Below, piece after piece: positions 4,230-10,058 of a stretch of DNA of 31,636 nt (position 1 is the stretch's first letter; the number at the start of each line of letters is the position of its first letter). The notes under the pieces are model-generated. The model saw nothing but the letters and a program-made list of their open reading frames with translations, was not told where the DNA came from and ran no database searches. Origin of the DNA: a virus; IMG/VR virus record IMGVR_UViG_3300042260_000866, positions 1 to 31,636 of that record; one strand, 5' to 3'. The translations under genes and the position numbers were made by a program.

Positions 4230-4419
4230 GGTCCATTCTCCTTCTTGCTTCGGCGGCCTGCCGCAAGTCCTTTATCGCCTGCTTGTCTCGTTCACGCCGT
4301 GCAGAGGCACGCCCTATCCCCATCAGGACAACCAAGATCCCTGCGATCATTGCCAAGGTCCCGAGCAGCGCCCGTCCGACCGTGCTCGCGCCAAGCCATC
4401 CCGCCAAAATGTTCATCAT
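4150..4419 (-). CDS. Rz-like inner-membrane spanin
   Basis: 89 residues with one membrane segment at about 15-36 (ALLGTLAMIAGILVVLMGIG), followed by a highly charged helical region (ARRERDKQAIKDLRQAAEAR) and a short tail ending near WLRARGR. This N-in, C-out layout with a periplasmic helix fits an i-spanin. The start codon overlaps the endolysin stop (TGATG), so the two are translationally coupled, and the Rz1-like gene starts within it. Confidence 0.7.
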   Translation of the reverse strand: MMNILAGWLGASTVGRALLGTLAMIAGILVVLMGIGRASARRERDKQAIKDLRQAAEARRRMDHADIGHHDIDDDREWLRARGRWPPSK

Positions 4420-5396
4420 CAGCGACCTATGTGTTTTCCTGAGCGGGCGTCATCGACACGAGCGTGTTTGATTTCGTTCAACAAATACCAGACCGATAGG
4501 CCGATGCCGGCGATGGCAAGGACCGGCCAAAGGGCACCAAACACACCCGTCGCACGGTCGAACAGATCACCTGCCTTTTCCATGGCGGCGATTGCGCCAT
4601 CTGCGCGTTCGAGGGCGATTGTGCCCCCGCCAAGCAACATGGCCGCGGTGGTTCCGGCCTGCGCGGTATCCGCGTTGCGGATCGTGCTGCTGCCGCGCGC
4701 GCGCAAAGTTGCCGCGTCGATGTCGCGCATCACGCGTGGCACCGCGGCCTGCAAAGCATCCCAGGTCTGGCCGCCAACAATGGCATCGCAGGGCAGGTTG
4801 TTATCCGCTTGGAACGCCAGCACGGCTTCGCGTGTTCTGGAACCGAACTGGGCGTCGATTGCACCTGCCGGATAGCCCAGCGCAGACAGTTGGTCTTGCA
4901 GATCGCGGACCGCGGCACCGTGTTGTCCCATGCGCAGGATCGGCCGGCCCGTTCCAGATGCCGAAACCGCCCTGCGGATCCCCAAGATCCGCGATGCAGG
5001 GTAGGGAGCGTCGCTCACACGGTTGCCCTGATTGCCACCGCGCAGGATTACCGCGTCGCCTTCAAACCCAAGAAGGAACGCAACATGGCCTTGCCAACCT
5101 TGGGGGCCGCCGCGCCATAAAATCACGACGTCGCCTGGTTTAGCCTCCGCCATGCCGACGGGTACACCCCATTCAAGGTATGACCGGGCATTCAAACGGC
5201 CGGTGTTGGGCAAGCCGAGTTCGGCCAAAACGGCTCCGACGAATGCCGCGCACCAAGAAGTTTCATCATCATGGATCTGCGGGTTGTCGGTTTTTCGGAA
5301 AAACTCGAGGACTGCAGGGTTTTGGCGCGCGCCTGGCCATTCCTCGATGCCAAGGTAGCGGCCGGCCGCCTCCAGAAGCGCTGGATTGTATTTCAT
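4419..5396 (-). CDS. Endolysin: CHAP/NlpC-P60-like peptidase with peptidoglycan-binding domain and C-terminal membrane anchor
   Basis: 325 residues. Residues 1-145 are a cysteine peptidase of the TIGR02594 kind, with Cys49 in SWCAAFV and His104 in WQGHVAF as likely catalytic pair, and the GGNQGN motif at 120-125. Residues about 151-215 match peptidoglycan-binding domain 1 (LRMGQHGAAVRDLQDQL ... FGSRTREAVLAFQ). A transmembrane helix lies at about 287-306 (ALWPVLAIAGIGLSVWYLL). It should cleave peptide bonds in peptidoglycan at lysis. The AAGGGA upstream of ATG supports the start. The C-terminal anchor is unusual compared with soluble lambda-type endolysins and may link it to holin or pinholin-style release. 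It is coupled to Rz downstream. Confidence 0.85.
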   Translation of the reverse strand: MKYNPALLEAAGRYLGIEEWPGARQNPAVLEFFRKTDNPQIHDDETSWCAAFVGAVLAELGLPNTGRLNARSYLEWGVPVGMAEAKPGDVVILWRGGPQGWQGHVAFLLGFEGDAVILRGGNQGNRVSDAPYPASRILGIRRAVSASGTGRPILRMGQHGAAVRDLQDQLSALGYPAGAIDAQFGSRTREAVLAFQADNNLPCDAIVGGQTWDALQAAVPRVMRDIDAATLRARGSSTIRNADTAQAGTTAAMLLGGGTIALERADGAIAAMEKAGDLFDRATGVFGALWPVLAIAGIGLSVWYLLNEIKHARVDDARSGKHIGR

Positions 5397-5466: not shown

Positions 5467-5733
5467 TCAATTGCCGGGGATTTTGCGATCCATCCGCTCC
5501 AAGGTGCGGCCGATGCCCACGATCGATTCCTCGATGCGCCCAAGCTGAATTGCCTGGGCCTGCGTGGCAGCGGCTTGATCTTCGACTTTGCGTTCGAGTT
5601 TGGCGATCTCCCTCTCGTTCAACTTGCTTTGATCCCGGGTTCTCGACAAAGCCACTTCAAGCCTCCCCCAAAGCCCCGCCAACCCCAGAAGCAGCGGCCA
5701 TACCGCCTGTATCGTTTCCCAGTCCGGCACCAT
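5467..5733 (-). CDS. Small membrane protein with coiled coil, possible holin-like or lysis accessory
   Basis: 88 residues. A hydrophobic segment lies at about 10-23 (AVWPLLLGLAGLWG), then a long charged helix with heptad-like spacing (LNEREIAKLERKVEDQ ... GIGRTLERMDRK). It resembles small DUF2730-like phage proteins with one N-terminal membrane helix and a coiled coil. Its start lies inside the 3' end of the radical SAM gene, with AAAGGGG 7 nt before the ATG. It precedes the endolysin and could be the holin or a tail-assembly accessory. No classical two- or three-TM holin is visible nearby. Confidence 0.65.
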   Translation of the reverse strand: MVPDWETIQAVWPLLLGLAGLWGRLEVALSRTRDQSKLNEREIAKLERKVEDQAAATQAQAIQLGRIEESIVGIGRTLERMDRKIPGN

Positions 5734-7000
5734 GAACTGCCCCTTTCTTGTTTACTTTGATGGGTTCCGCCTTGAGAGCGACGGCCGTTACGCCGATCAC
5801 CACCGCCCCGGTTAGATGGAAAATGGCCGCCATAAATATCCCGAAGTTAAACGCAAACTCATTCGCACAACTCTGCTTAAAGAACTCACCCTCAAGGAAC
5901 ATGCAGGCCCCCTTGCAGAGTTGAACAACGGGACAGGACATACACTCGGCACGGAAGGCAAAATGCGTGGCCGTATTGAGCGCAATCTCGTCAAACTCAG
6001 CCACATGGCCAATTTTGTGCATGCCCTTGGCCCCGGTGTTCTGACAGGTCATGACATTGCCCTGAAGATCGACAGCGAGGTGCTCGGGCCGGTCCATGGC
6101 GCATTTCTGGCTGAGGGCAGAGATCGGCCGCCGGGTTTTCAGGGAGGTGATAAAGTCACGAAGGCGGGTGTCGAGCCCGAAGCCCTGGGGGTCGGTGACG
6201 AGGCTTTCAAACACCACGCGACGCAAAGCATGGAGATCTGCCGCTTCAAACCGCCCTGGCCCCAAAAGGGTTGCGGTATCATAGATATCCACCACGCCTT
6301 CAACCGAAAGCGGCACATCTGGCCCCAACCGTTCTTGGAACCATGCCCTGATCGCGCCAAGGTCATAGTTCTGAACGGTCAGAACGGTGTTGATGCCAAC
6401 GTGACCTTTTCGCTCAGAAAGCAGCGCCTCGATCCAGCGCCGCTGCTCGGGGTTCTCGAGCGGGTCTGGCCCGCGCTGATCTTGGCCGGGCCCATCATGA
6501 CTGAGACCAATGTCGATGCCATAGCGGTGAATGAGATCGAGCTTCTCACGATCAAGAAGCGAGCCATTGGTGATGATCAGGAACCGTGCCGACGGGAACC
6601 GGTCTGCCAGCGCCGGGATCAGGCGCTTCAACTTGGCCCAATAGACAAAGGGCTCGCCTCCCCAAATCTCGATCCGCTCCGGCGCGCCCTGAAGCCAACT
6701 GTCAAGGTTTGCCAGAAACTCGTCGACGTCACTGAGCCTGGAGAGCGTCGCATCCCCAATCTGGCTGGCCTGGCTGCAATAGGAACAGCTGTAATTGCAG
6801 GACAGGCCCAACTGGATTTTGAGAACCTTTGGGGCGCGGGATTTACCCAAGGGCGCGGCCTTCGAGACGCGGGGAGCATCCTGCCAATCCCGCTCCGTAA
6901 TGGGGCCAATGTCGATCCCTTCGATCTTTGAGGTATGCGGGTCGTAACGGATCTCGCGACGGCTGCCGTCGCGCGCTTCAAGGGTCAGGATAAATCCCAT
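5657..7000 (-). CDS. Radical SAM/SPASM peptide-modifying enzyme
   Basis: 447 residues. The radical SAM CxxxCxxC motif is C68-NYS-C72-SY-C75, with the SAM-binding GGEP at 114-117. A complete SPASM domain follows: C300, then GxxxxC ending at C319, then C353xxC356 x5 C362 x3 C366, and C378, enough for two auxiliary [4Fe-4S] clusters. SPASM proteins include sulfatase-maturing enzymes and RiPP maturases that form thioether, C-C or epimerised residues on peptides. The start overlaps the upstream oxygenase stop (TGATG). The last 25 or so residues overlap the next gene and are Gly/Ala-rich, possibly a dispensable tail. The substrate is inferred to be the Cys-tailed protein at 7625-7885. The protein is cytoplasmic. 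The family is near certain, the substrate uncertain. Confidence 0.93.
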   Translation of the reverse strand: MGFILTLEARDGSRREIRYDPHTSKIEGIDIGPITERDWQDAPRVSKAAPLGKSRAPKVLKIQLGLSCNYSCSYCSQASQIGDATLSRLSDVDEFLANLDSWLQGAPERIEIWGGEPFVYWAKLKRLIPALADRFPSARFLIITNGSLLDREKLDLIHRYGIDIGLSHDGPGQDQRGPDPLENPEQRRWIEALLSERKGHVGINTVLTVQNYDLGAIRAWFQERLGPDVPLSVEGVVDIYDTATLLGPGRFEAADLHALRRVVFESLVTDPQGFGLDTRLRDFITSLKTRRPISALSQKCAMDRPEHLAVDLQGNVMTCQNTGAKGMHKIGHVAEFDEIALNTATHFAFRAECMSCPVVQLCKGACMFLEGEFFKQSCANEFAFNFGIFMAAIFHLTGAVVIGVTAVALKAEPIKVNKKGAVHGAGLGNDTGGMAAASGVGGALGEA

Positions 7001-7614
7001 CAGTCAAACCATTCTTCTTGGAGATGCTCCGGGATCGTGACCCGGAAGTTCATGACGATCTGGATATGTGTGGCCTCGCCCCGATAGGGATGCTGGTTAT
7101 GCGGGATCCAGGAGGGGAAGATCACCAGAAGCCCCGGTCGGGGGTTCACGCTAAAGGCCGACCGGCTTTCAAATGGAAGCCGCGGCTGATCGGCATAGCG
7201 GCTCGGGTCTTCAAGGCAAAAGCGCGGATTGCCTACCGAATTGATTGGCTGACCCGCCCCGCTCCCTGAGAGGAACAAGACCGCCGTCACATCGCCTTCG
7301 CGACTGTCGGCATGTGTGTTGATGAAGGCGCGATCCTCAATGAGAAGCGCGCGGTTCTCGCAGTAGGTGGGATCAAGGAAGGCGGCCCCCGGCCCAAGAT
7401 AATCGCCCACGCAATCGCGCACGGTCGCCAAAAGCCCCGGCGCCTCCGCCATAATACCCCGGACCCGCCGTTCCGCCGCACTCCGCCCCACCTGTGGCGG
7501 CCGCCACGCGCGGTCATAAAGCGCCTGAAGCTGCCCGGCGGCCTCGTCTGCCTCAAGCTGGTAAAAGCCAACCCGCGTGGGCCAAAGCTCAGCAATCTGC
7601 CGTTGAACCTGCAT
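7000..7614 (-). CDS. Putative 2OG-Fe(II) oxygenase B
   Basis: 204 residues. The double-stranded beta-helix signature of Fe(II)/2-oxoglutarate oxygenases is present: H101-A-D103 as the first two iron ligands, and H172 in the FPSWIPHNQHP motif as the third, like phage 2OG-FeII_Oxy_5-type proteins. The position where 2-oxoglutarate-binding Arg is expected, about 11 residues after the distal His, is His183, with Arg178 nearby; activity or cosubstrate use may differ. A GAGGG lies before the ATG, 10 bp after the Cys-tail gene, and the stop is coupled to the radical SAM gene. Likely a hydroxylase of a peptide or protein side chain in the same pathway; the target is inferred only from neighbourhood. 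Confidence 0.8.
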   Translation of the reverse strand: MQVQRQIAELWPTRVGFYQLEADEAAGQLQALYDRAWRPPQVGRSAAERRVRGIMAEAPGLLATVRDCVGDYLGPGAAFLDPTYCENRALLIEDRAFINTHADSREGDVTAVLFLSGSGAGQPINSVGNPRFCLEDPSRYADQPRLPFESRSAFSVNPRPGLLVIFPSWIPHNQHPYRGEATHIQIVMNFRVTIPEHLQEEWFD

Positions 7615-7624
7615 GCGCGCGCCC

Positions 7625-7885
7625 TCAGCAATAGCACTGACAGTTGCAGTTCGTGGCAGGCTGATATGTGCGCAGGTAAATATCGTGATACGTCATATCA
7701 CTTTGGAACTCGAGGCCGATGAAGGTGGTCGAGACGAGGTTCCCACTTCCGCTAACCTTATACTCGGTCGCCGTCTTGGAATATTCGCCAGCCGCCAAGC
7801 CGGCCGCCGGCGCCCCAGAGATCCGCGCCCAAGGCACAGAGCCCGTATCATCAATGACGATGGTGGTTCCGACCTTATAGGCCAT
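7625..7885 (-). CDS. Small fibre-like protein with C-terminal C-x-C-x-C-x-C, candidate modification substrate
   Basis: 86 residues. The start MAYKVGTTIVIDDTGSVPWA resembles N-termini and repeats of phage tail-fibre proteins (TTVIDDxxxxxWxxISG). The middle is beta-prone and Gly/Ser/Thr-rich. The only cysteines are C80, C82, C84 and C86, alternating with N, Q and Y, so the protein ends on Cys. Its ribosome binding site (GGAGGAG, 6 nt before ATG) is the strongest in the cassette, as expected for a substrate or structural protein needed in more copies than the enzymes. It lies between two oxygenase genes (11-bp overlap upstream, 10-bp gap downstream) and before a SPASM enzyme. Inference: a virion tip peptide whose Cys tail is modified. 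Unmodified metal or Fe-S binding is the main alternative. Confidence 0.8.
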   Translation of the reverse strand: MAYKVGTTIVIDDTGSVPWARISGAPAAGLAAGEYSKTATEYKVSGSGNLVSTTFIGLEFQSDMTYHDIYLRTYQPATNCNCQCYC

Positions 7886-8570
7886 GGTGCTCTCCTCCGA
7901 TGTCTAAAGGGGTTTGGGCATTGGGAAGCCGCAAGGTGACCTGCAGCGGCAGGCAAACGCGGCGGTGCCCCTCAAAGGGCGCGGAATCATGGGGGACATG
8001 CCCCTCGAAGATGACCATTGTCCCGGTGCGGGGCCGCACATCGAACCAACTGCCGGTGAAGATCGCGGTGTTTCTATTCGGCCAAAGCCGATGGCCACGC
8101 CCCCCCGGGTCGTAAAACCGCAAGGCCCCCTCGCGATAGGGCTGCGGCCCGGCGGGGCCGAAGGTGACCTCCGGGTAATAAGTCACCACAAAATCCGCGC
8201 GCGGATGGCTATGGGTAAAGATGCCGATTGTCTCCCCACCACTGTCGCCTTGCACGAAGGGTTCGGCGATGGCGTCGATCCTTTCCGGCAGATCCGCGCC
8301 ATATGCCCGTTGCAGATATTCGGCGAGACCCGTGCGCGCGGCAGAAAGCCAGGCCTCAACGACAGACTCCCCGCGATACTCGGCCAGAAGATTATGCCGG
8401 ATATGGCCAAAGGGGCTGTCGGCCGTTCCCAGATTGCGCGGATCCGCATCATCGACCACGCGGTGGCCTGCGGCATCCGCAACGGCGATCTCGGCCAAAC
8501 GCTGGTTAAGATCTGCGCTGAGAAGGCCATGCTTCACCAGCACAAAGCTCGGATAAAGGGCGGTGAACAT
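7875..8570 (-). CDS. Putative 2OG-Fe(II) oxygenase A
   Basis: 231 residues. The motif FTHSHPRADFVVTYYP (H120, H122, D126) matches the NxHxHPxxxxSGVYYV-type region of phage 2OG-Fe(II) oxygenases. The distal motif FEGHVPHDSAPFEGHRRVCL supplies H191/H194 and Arg203 or Arg204 for 2-oxoglutarate. A loop GRGHRLWPNRN between them fits the family's substrate-side region. It shares only motif-level similarity with oxygenase B. Its last 11 bases overlap the start of the Cys-tail protein gene, so both are probably translated together. Expected cytoplasmic hydroxylase acting on a peptide/protein; substrate unknown. Confidence 0.8.
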   Translation of the reverse strand: MFTALYPSFVLVKHGLLSADLNQRLAEIAVADAAGHRVVDDADPRNLGTADSPFGHIRHNLLAEYRGESVVEAWLSAARTGLAEYLQRAYGADLPERIDAIAEPFVQGDSGGETIGIFTHSHPRADFVVTYYPEVTFGPAGPQPYREGALRFYDPGGRGHRLWPNRNTAIFTGSWFDVRPRTGTMVIFEGHVPHDSAPFEGHRRVCLPLQVTLRLPNAQTPLDIGGEHHGL

Positions 8571-8581
8571 CAGACCGCCTC

Positions 8582-9469
8582 TCAGACCACAGCCACATCA
8601 ACGCGCCCGACGGCGGTGTAATGGTCGGTGTTGATCTTGATGGAGAGAGTATCGCCCGCGCGAAGGCCTAAAGCGCAAGCCCGGATCACGGCCCGCCCTT
8701 CGGCATCGGTCACCACGCGGGTCTGCGCAACATAACCGGACAGGGCCTCGAGTTTCAGGTGAGTGCTGTGGGCAAGCGGCGTGCCGTCGGCGTTTTCGGC
8801 GAGGTGGAGGGGGATTTCGATCCAAGCTTCGGGGGAGACGGTGAGATCTTCTGGCAACCGCACCGACCAATAGAACCTGAGATAGCCACGCCCATCGCTT
8901 GTTGCCTCCTCGGGACCGAGGAGGACAGGATCAGCCGTGCCGCCAAAGCCAAAGACCTGCAAATTGGGCAGGATGATGCGGCAGTCATGGAAACTGCCCG
9001 TGGCAATCGGCATCCAGACATAGCACGCAATCTGACTGCCACGCTTGGCCCGGTTGCGCTGACCAAATTCGTTTTTGTCCCAACGCGAGGTGATCAGCCG
9101 ATTGTCCCAAGTGGCGAGCATCCCCGCCCTATCCACCGGCACCTCAAACCGGCTGAAGTCGACCACCTCATCGGCCCCCTTCAGATCCGCAAGGTCGAAG
9201 ATCACATGGCTGCAATAGGCCAATAGCGTTCCCGGGGCACTCGGATCTTCAATCGCATGGGCCTCATAGAAGACCTCAGGCGTGCCTGCCCGAGAGGGGC
9301 GGTCCAGAAGTGTCGCCGCCAAAGCATCAAGGGCCAAGATGACGGGACGCTCCAGCCGATCGATCGGCTTGAAGGCAACAAGCGTCAGCCGGGTGGCGCT
9401 GAGATTGACCCCAATGGTGAGAGGGCTTGCATGCCCCAAGTGATAAAGCCCTGTGTCAGCCGCGCGCAT
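8582..9469 (-). CDS. Putative tail-fibre-associated protein with C-terminal Ig-like domain
   Basis: 295 residues, no enzyme motif. The N-terminal 200 residues are beta-rich and aromatic (AYCSHVIFDLADL, TWDNRLITSRWDKNEFGQ, CRIILPNLQVFGFGG), as in phage tip or adhesin proteins. Residues about 205-295 look like a bacterial Ig-like domain (IEIPLHLAENADGTPL ... GYVAQTRVVTDAEGRAVIR ... GDTLSIKINTDHYT). The gene overlaps the end of the S74 fibre gene by 14 bp and ends 11 bp before oxygenase A, so it belongs to the fibre/modification cassette. It may be the structural partner or carrier of the Cys-tailed peptide. The family was not recognised. Confidence 0.7.
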   Translation of the reverse strand: MRAADTGLYHLGHASPLTIGVNLSATRLTLVAFKPIDRLERPVILALDALAATLLDRPSRAGTPEVFYEAHAIEDPSAPGTLLAYCSHVIFDLADLKGADEVVDFSRFEVPVDRAGMLATWDNRLITSRWDKNEFGQRNRAKRGSQIACYVWMPIATGSFHDCRIILPNLQVFGFGGTADPVLLGPEEATSDGRGYLRFYWSVRLPEDLTVSPEAWIEIPLHLAENADGTPLAHSTHLKLEALSGYVAQTRVVTDAEGRAVIRACALGLRAGDTLSIKINTDHYTAVGRVDVAVV

Positions 9470-10058
9470 GCGGGCCCTCCTTTAGCTGATTGACCTGGAG
9501 GCTCAGGTCCTTGAAGGCCTCGACGAGGAGGCCAATGAGATTGCCATAGGCGAGGCGCAGCACCCCCTCGGTTTCGACCACGGCCTCCGGCGCCACGGCC
9601 TGAACTTCCTGGGCGATGAGACCCATTTGCCGCGTCTCGCTGCCTGCCATAGTGAAGGTGACACCGGTGAGGGCTTGGACCTTGGCCAGCGCATCCGCGA
9701 TGGGCGCGATGTCGGATTTGAGCCGCGCGTCGGACGAGGAGACGAAGTTCGGCGCCGTGACCGTGCCTGTGAATGTCGCCCCGGACAGCAAGGCAAAGGC
9801 GCTGGCATGGTTGCCATCAAGAAGATCGGCATCAAGACCTGAGCCCGGCCCATCTTGCGCGGTGATCTTGGCAAAGATCTGCGCGTCCGTCAGCGCAGCC
9901 GAGGTGACATCGACAATGCTTTCGACGCCGCTCGCGCTTTTCTTAAGGTAGAGCTTGCCGTCGGTGACATTCACCGCAAGTTCGCCGGCCGCGAGCTGCG
10001 CGGTTGTCGGCACCCGGCCGGCGACGGTTGTGCGTTTGACAAGAAGCGTATTGGCCAT
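9456..10058 (-). CDS. Tail fibre with C-terminal S74 intramolecular chaperone
   Basis: 200 residues. The N-terminus is a fibre-type start (ANTLLVKRTTVAGRVPTTAQ, then LAAGELAVNVTDGKLYLK), followed by linker sequence with LDADLLDGNHAS. From about residue 108 comes the peptidase S74/endosialidase-chaperone domain: SSDARLKSDI with the self-cleavage serine region, then QMGLIAQEVQAVAPEAV and RLAYGNLIGLLVEAFK ending in a coiled coil. This domain drives trimerisation and then cuts itself off. It is paralogous to the C-terminus of the protein at 11878-12534. Confidence 0.85.
   Translation of the reverse strand: MANTLLVKRTTVAGRVPTTAQLAAGELAVNVTDGKLYLKKSASGVESIVDVTSAALTDAQIFAKITAQDGPGSGLDADLLDGNHASAFALLSGATFTGTVTAPNFVSSSDARLKSDIAPIADALAKVQALTGVTFTMAGSETRQMGLIAQEVQAVAPEAVVETEGVLRLAYGNLIGLLVEAFKDLSLQVNQLKEGPHARG

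Follow-up and report, generated by a model that had tools for sequence, protein, structure and literature searches.

Radical SAM genes of phages have been treated as metabolic genes (PMC7150976), and pelagimyophage host-recognition islands are known to hold radical SAM cassettes (PMC7029224). As in the locus described here, the pelagimyophage radical SAM genes adjoin tail-fibre genes; however, these cassettes were reported only as variable, and neither a substrate nor a Cys tail was described there. The closest described enzymes are CteB and the maturases of SCIFF peptides and ranthipeptides (PapB, NxxcB type), with which the phage enzyme shares the SPASM radical SAM fold and the set of seven Cys residues. 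Their substrates are Cys-rich, as is the proposed phage substrate, with Asn or Asp as possible acceptors (PMC8326336). One auxiliary cluster of CteB has an open site able to bind a substrate Cys, and in the ranthipeptide NxxcA the link connects Cys23 with Asn20 (PMC8326336). In contrast to these systems, the present one is encoded by a phage, is proposed to act on the C-terminus of a tail protein, has strictly alternating Cys residues and comes with no leader, exporter or protease; furthermore, no RiPP recognition domain was identified. QhpD and the anaerobic sulfatase maturases are likewise radical SAM/SPASM enzymes that modify residues in a large protein instead of a short peptide, but they act on cellular enzymes, whereas the substrate proposed here is part of the virion.

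The locus lies in a linear IMG/VR virus record (IMGVR_UViG_3300042260_000866), of which positions 1 to 31,636 were analysed as one stretch of 31,636 nucleotides (the window). Most genes are located on the minus strand. The gene order is portal, head protein with protease, tape measure, tail proteins, TipJ-like fibre and S74 fibres, followed by a 295-aa protein, a first 2OG-Fe(II) oxygenase (2OG-A), an 86-aa Cys-tailed protein, a second oxygenase (2OG-B), the radical SAM/SPASM enzyme, an 88-aa protein and the endolysin. S74 and tail-repeat fibre genes are situated upstream of a four-gene locus and a CHAP/PG-binding endolysin downstream of it. The coordinates and motifs that a sequence-only reading had given for these four genes were borne out, all four being encoded on the minus strand and either overlapping or separated by about 10 bp. 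The features are as follows:

4419..5396, minus strand: endolysin with CHAP and PG-binding domains, context (PF01471, PF05257)
5657..7000, minus strand: radical SAM/SPASM enzyme, 447 aa, proposed tail-modifying enzyme (PF04055, TIGR04085, phrog_1802; invariant cluster Cys; CteB-like model)
7000..7614, minus strand: 2OG-Fe(II) oxygenase B, 204 aa, optional tailoring enzyme (PF13759 above cut-off)
7625..7885, minus strand: Cys-tailed tail-tip protein, 86 aa, proposed substrate (scaffold and tail conserved in three close loci, L001 to L003)
7628..7651, minus strand: C-terminal tail NCNCQCYC, proposed modification site (sequence; Cys invariant in the scaffold clade)
7875..8570, minus strand: 2OG-Fe(II) oxygenase A, 231 aa, optional tailoring enzyme (PF13759 below cut-off; phrog_81, E 3e-10)
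8582..9469, minus strand: 295-aa partner with a C-terminal Ig/invasin-like domain (family in 42 of 74 enzyme clusters; model)
9456..10058, minus strand: S74-type tail fibre gene, upstream context (PF13884, E 4e-16)

The assignment of the enzyme to the radical SAM and SPASM families, proposed before from its motifs, held in profile searches, in which it scored above the cut-offs of both PF04055 (E 2e-11, 44.7 bits, cut-off 29.5) and the SPASM model TIGR04085; phrog_1802 was matched with an E-value of 3e-53. Among 62 relatives, the first two Cys residues of the CxxxCxxC radical SAM motif are invariant and the third is conserved in at least 90%, and the seven SPASM Cys residues (C300, C319, C353, C356, C362, C366 and C378) are invariant throughout. 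The AlphaFold model (pLDDT 92) found its best structural match in CteB (Z 23.7 over 358 residues), followed by ChlB, anSME, TigE and SkfB. In profile alignments, anSME has one extra cluster Cys in the aligned SPASM region compared to the phage enzyme, which CteB does not have either. The enzyme stays below the cut-offs of the curated ranthipeptide maturase models, scoring 48.5 bits against the PapB model (cut-off 340) and 28.7 bits against the SCIFF maturase model (cut-off 425).

The 86-aa protein, whose ATG is preceded by GGAGGAG, ends in ATNCNCQCYC. It yielded no family match in Pfam, PHROG and TIGR profile searches. Searches against phage records gave weak N-terminal matches only (E 0.2 to 0.8); those in P-SSM2 sit within a large predicted protein adjoining baseplate genes and are suggestive at most. 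In three close loci (L001 to L003), the radical SAM enzyme is 60% to 66% identical to that of the window, and the order of the 295-aa protein, 2OG-A, the Cys-tailed protein, 2OG-B and the enzyme is the same. The scaffold MAYKVGxTIVI and the Cys tail are conserved between these loci and the window, the tails of the relatives ending in NCNCNCRC. By synteny with the fibre and lysis genes only, the 86-aa protein is presumably a tail protein.

Alignment-based scans detected 129 relatives of the enzyme in bacterial genomes (Rhodobacteraceae, Comamonadaceae, Rhodospirillaceae and others) and at least 583 matching viral-contig stretches, of which the loci of the best 79 and the best 80, respectively, were read. 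The isolated Achromobacter phages JWF and 2-1 are among the more distant relatives. The enzymes were grouped at 80% identity, and 68 clusters had enough upstream DNA to be searched, on the same strand and up to 4 kb upstream of the enzyme gene, for ORFs containing four or more alternating Cys residues. Such an ORF was present in 48 of the 68 clusters, far more often than by chance, compared to 3/68 on the opposite strand, 2/66 downstream on the same strand, 0/66 downstream on the opposite strand and 1/745 in shuffled regions. When at least five Cys residues were demanded, 33 clusters remained as opposed to 1, 0 and 0 in the control regions. Of the clusters scored as lacking a tail, many are cut short by the end of the contig, or their tails are of a mixed Cys type (NCNCNCANCDCSTC or YCSYCSYCTCACSDCSC, for example). 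A few truly lack one, and several of these are bacterial peptide clusters; in addition, the weak enzyme matches in a faecal phage contig and in Campylobacter phage CP220 had no Cys tail in their vicinity. A general lack of Cys-tailed neighbours, the outcome that the sequence-only reading had named as speaking against it, did not occur.

The association was also examined in the opposite direction. The DNA pattern of NCNCNCxC was searched in viral contigs irrespective of the enzyme, which returned at least 120 matching stretches. Among the matches listed, a radical SAM enzyme was encoded close by on the same strand for all 43 ORFs in which the motif was C-terminal or led into a Hint domain and for which 3 kb or more of the DNA downstream was available. 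The other occurrences listed, most of them chance frames or members of a small metallothionein-like family, had the enzyme nearby in 2 of 27 cases. The p-value for this contrast among the matches listed (Fisher, 5e-17) describes the contrast and not a number of independent events, because the selection rule was chosen with knowledge of the list and some of the loci are related to one another. From this genomic association, the Cys tail is very probably the substrate of the radical SAM enzyme. Radical SAM and 2OG-Fe genes are listed as auxiliary metabolic genes in marine phage surveys (PMC7150976), and the enzymes could accordingly act on host metabolism, the Cys tail being unrelated to them; the tight two-way linkage to one kind of C-terminal Cys tail makes this hardly credible.

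The Cys tails sit on several unrelated scaffolds, which are structural proteins of 60 to 700 residues. One of them (L145) combines the T7 tail-fibre N-terminal domain PF03906 with collagen repeats, which are also found in the scaffolds of L028 and L114. Six to seven of ten scanned Cys-tailed scaffolds, including most of the longer ones, matched tail-fibre PHROGs. Because of these domains and matches, the tail can be regarded as the C-terminal end of real fibres, and in T7-type fibres it is the C-terminal end that meets the receptor. Of 66 distinct tails from 46 clusters, 54 are located at the stop codon or at most 10 residues from it, whereas 12 continue into a Hint-like domain. In the JWF fibre protein, the alternating-Cys stretch NCNCDCNCNCSCFPAGTMV leads directly into the Hint domain; the same arrangement is present in phage 2-1 and others, and PF05203 scored above the cut-off in L006 and L114. 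With the Hom_end_hint proteins (PF05203) these 12 tails share a Hint domain, which follows the Cys tail directly and whose cleavage is putative, whereas the 86-aa protein of the window has none.

The nature of these scaffolds also bears on the question of whether the locus might make a secreted peptide, i.e., a prophage-borne bacteriocin or signal. Among the 62 enzymes placed in a tree, four that come from peptide clusters of bacteria branch at two positions within the phage enzymes; three of them are accompanied by YcaO and the fourth by a C39 exporter and HlyD. Because the bacterial enzymes nest among those of phages, a single enzyme family is in use for phage fibres and very likely for bacterial peptides too. 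For the phage loci, however, secretion is highly improbable: they are situated between fibre and lysis genes, the tail belongs to the structural proteins described above, and their neighbourhoods show no recurring exporter or peptidase family. Genes for export or leader removal were confined to bacterial relatives such as L061, which places the phage loci outside a strict definition of RiPP clusters. The missing exporter and leader protease pointed out earlier are hence a property of the phage versions, while the bacterial relatives do have RiPP partners. The proposal that the phage modifies its own tail-tip protein instead of secreting a bacteriocin is strongly supported by the co-occurrence in both directions, by the fibre scaffolds and by these missing genes.

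In 74 enzyme clusters, the most frequent partner families were the 295-aa protein (42 clusters), 2OG-A (17) and 2OG-B (16), followed by a second radical SAM enzyme (9), a third, PF13640-like oxygenase (6) and a PP-loop-like protein (5). Constant across the loci were the radical SAM enzyme and the Cys tail only; no other protein is as constant as the tail. As the oxygenases are optional (17 and 16 of 74 clusters), the enzyme and the Cys tail form the core pair, and the four-gene cassette was rejected as the functional unit. Neither did the two oxygenases turn out to have distinct folds, as had been claimed: both belong to one family (PF13759/phrog_81) and align with each other at an E-value of 6e-7. 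In the HMM search proposed for PF13759, 2OG-B scored above the cut-off of 27 (29.5 bits), but 2OG-A fell below it (23.5 bits) and was assigned via phrog_81 (E 3e-10). Instead of the usual HxD...H motif, 2OG-A has HxH...H, which is invariant in 18 relatives; in 2OG-B, His101 and His172 are invariant in 16 relatives. The model of the 295-aa partner (pLDDT 85) contains an Ig/invasin-like domain at the C-terminus, to which all matches of the fold search were confined.

The composition of the tails gives some indication of the chemistry. Each run comprises 4 to 10 Cys residues, and Asn (50%), Ala (20%) and Asp (17%) together make up 87% of the spacers in the 66 distinct tails. In the scaffold clade of the window (34 tails), the four Cys and the first two Asn residues are invariant, while spacers 3 and 4 vary. 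Since the linked residues in NxxcA are Asn at position i and Cys at i+3, each N-C-N-C repeat offers the NxxC geometry. The NxxC model predicts Asn or Asp before the first Cys and a free choice before the last. The share of Asn/Asp was 89% before the first Cys, 73% in the inner spacers and 47% before the last Cys (p 1e-4); in tails stopping exactly at the last Cys, the corresponding counts were 16/16 before the first and 5/16 before the last (p 7e-5). This register, read from the tail sequences, is consistent with NxxC links but is no proof of them, and relaxed ends have other causes. Ala spacers are poor thioether acceptors, which counts against thioether chemistry. That the tail carries a thioether of any kind is put at slightly below an even chance, and NxxC links in particular are proposed tentatively.

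A different reaction on the tail, either epimerization of alternate residues in a PoyD-like 1,3 pattern or Cys oxidation, is just as tentative a proposal. PoyD produces patterns similar to the strict 1,3 periodicity of the tail (PMC8326336), and oxygenases often accompany the enzyme. PoyD-type epimerases, however, are without SPASM clusters (PMC8326336), the epimerase EpeE matched the model less well than CteB (Z 14 versus 23.7), and the invariant residue is Cys, which fits best to S-linked chemistry. The tail might also serve a trimeric fibre tip as a disulfide cap or as a needle that binds metal or Fe–S, the radical SAM enzyme then acting on a different protein or assisting in metal insertion. 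Metal-binding tips (HxH) are known in other phage fibres, alternating Cys residues on a strand would face one side and could line the three-fold axis, and collagen-type, hence trimeric, scaffolds bear the Cys tail. A needle would nevertheless leave the pairing with the enzyme in both directions in need of a separate reason. The spacers, moreover, are restricted to Asn, Ala and Asp and relaxed before the last Cys, and the enzyme has no partner as constant as the tail; this reading is considered distinctly unlikely.

Taken as a whole, the locus probably represents a phage-encoded system for the maturation of tail-fibre tips. The radical SAM/SPASM enzyme would act in the infected cell while virions are being assembled, modifying the (Asn/Asp/Ala-Cys)n tail at the C-terminus of a fibre or tail-tip protein, and neither leader removal nor export would be involved. 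The finished tail would be located at the distal end of the fibre, either as the natural C-terminus, as in the protein of the window, or, in other phages, once the C-terminal Hint domain is cut off. The 2OG oxygenases, the second radical SAM enzyme and other enzymes may add phage-specific changes. The most likely chemistry would be a thioether from Cys to the Asn or Asp three residues earlier (NxxC, as in ranthipeptides), and such cross-links could staple the tail and make the tip rigid for contact with the host. A role of the modified tail in host contact is rather likely. It is conceivable, albeit improbable, that a thioether-stapled or macrocyclic tip is a general host-contact device, in which an overlapping NxxC ladder installed by the radical SAM enzyme is combined, in Hint-bearing versions, with a Hint-released thioester; if a tail Cys or a host-surface group captured the latter, the tip would become cyclic or covalently reactive.

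No description of Cys-tailed fibres or of radical SAM maturation of virion proteins was found in the open-access papers searched. Enzymes of this class are known, but their employment at the tip of a virion, in combination with Hint domains and exchangeable tailoring enzymes, appears to be new; the novelty is the system and not the type of reaction. The isolated phages JWF and 2-1 make the modification of the fibre tip directly testable. If the proposal is true, it joins peptide enzymology to phage adsorption, explains the "auxiliary" radical SAM and 2OG genes adjoining fibre genes and matters whenever fibres are made without their modifying enzymes. A large set of tailed phages, judged by the at least 583 viral-contig stretches with a relative of the enzyme, would then finish their fibre tips by radical chemistry.

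The Cys-tailed proteins of the three loci closest to the window (L001-L003) carry a further internal cysteine motif, NCNC..NC, which is absent from the window's own 86-residue protein. Nine of the 74 clusters of relatives of the radical SAM/SPASM enzyme have a second radical SAM gene, placed between that of the Cys-tailed fibre and that of the main enzyme; its product is shorter and has SPASM-like cysteines of its own. A PP-loop-like protein with the motif WSGGVDSTA is located near the main enzyme in five clusters; a Pfam scan of one member gave no match.

Neighbouring genes in related loci (examples for the first two types)
L022, 1140-2165: second radical SAM enzyme
L027, 7897-8985: second radical SAM enzyme
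L018, 10077-11372: PP-loop-like protein
L085, 4244-5356: PP-loop-like protein
L288 (Thermus phage Cumys), 4997-6028 and 6037-7287: gene pair of radical SAM enzyme and H-x-D repeat protein

Members of the enzyme family also occur together with a YcaO protein in bacterial clusters of Ramlibacter (L017), Variovorax (L020) and a gammaproteobacterium (L033). In L020 and in L079, a small precursor-like ORF lies immediately upstream of the radical SAM gene, and the bacterial loci are candidate peptide clusters.

Viral contigs lacking the enzyme (among others L174, L175, L182 and L208) encode an unrelated family of small Cys-rich proteins with KNCNCNCHC close to the N-terminus, which looks metallothionein-like.

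In Thermus phage Cumys, H-x-D repeats make up most of a protein whose gene is immediately followed by that of a remoter radical SAM relative, with tail genes adjoining. The H-x-D repeat recurs at the end of this enzyme. The pair may represent the logic of radical SAM enzyme and Cys tail realised with another repeat.
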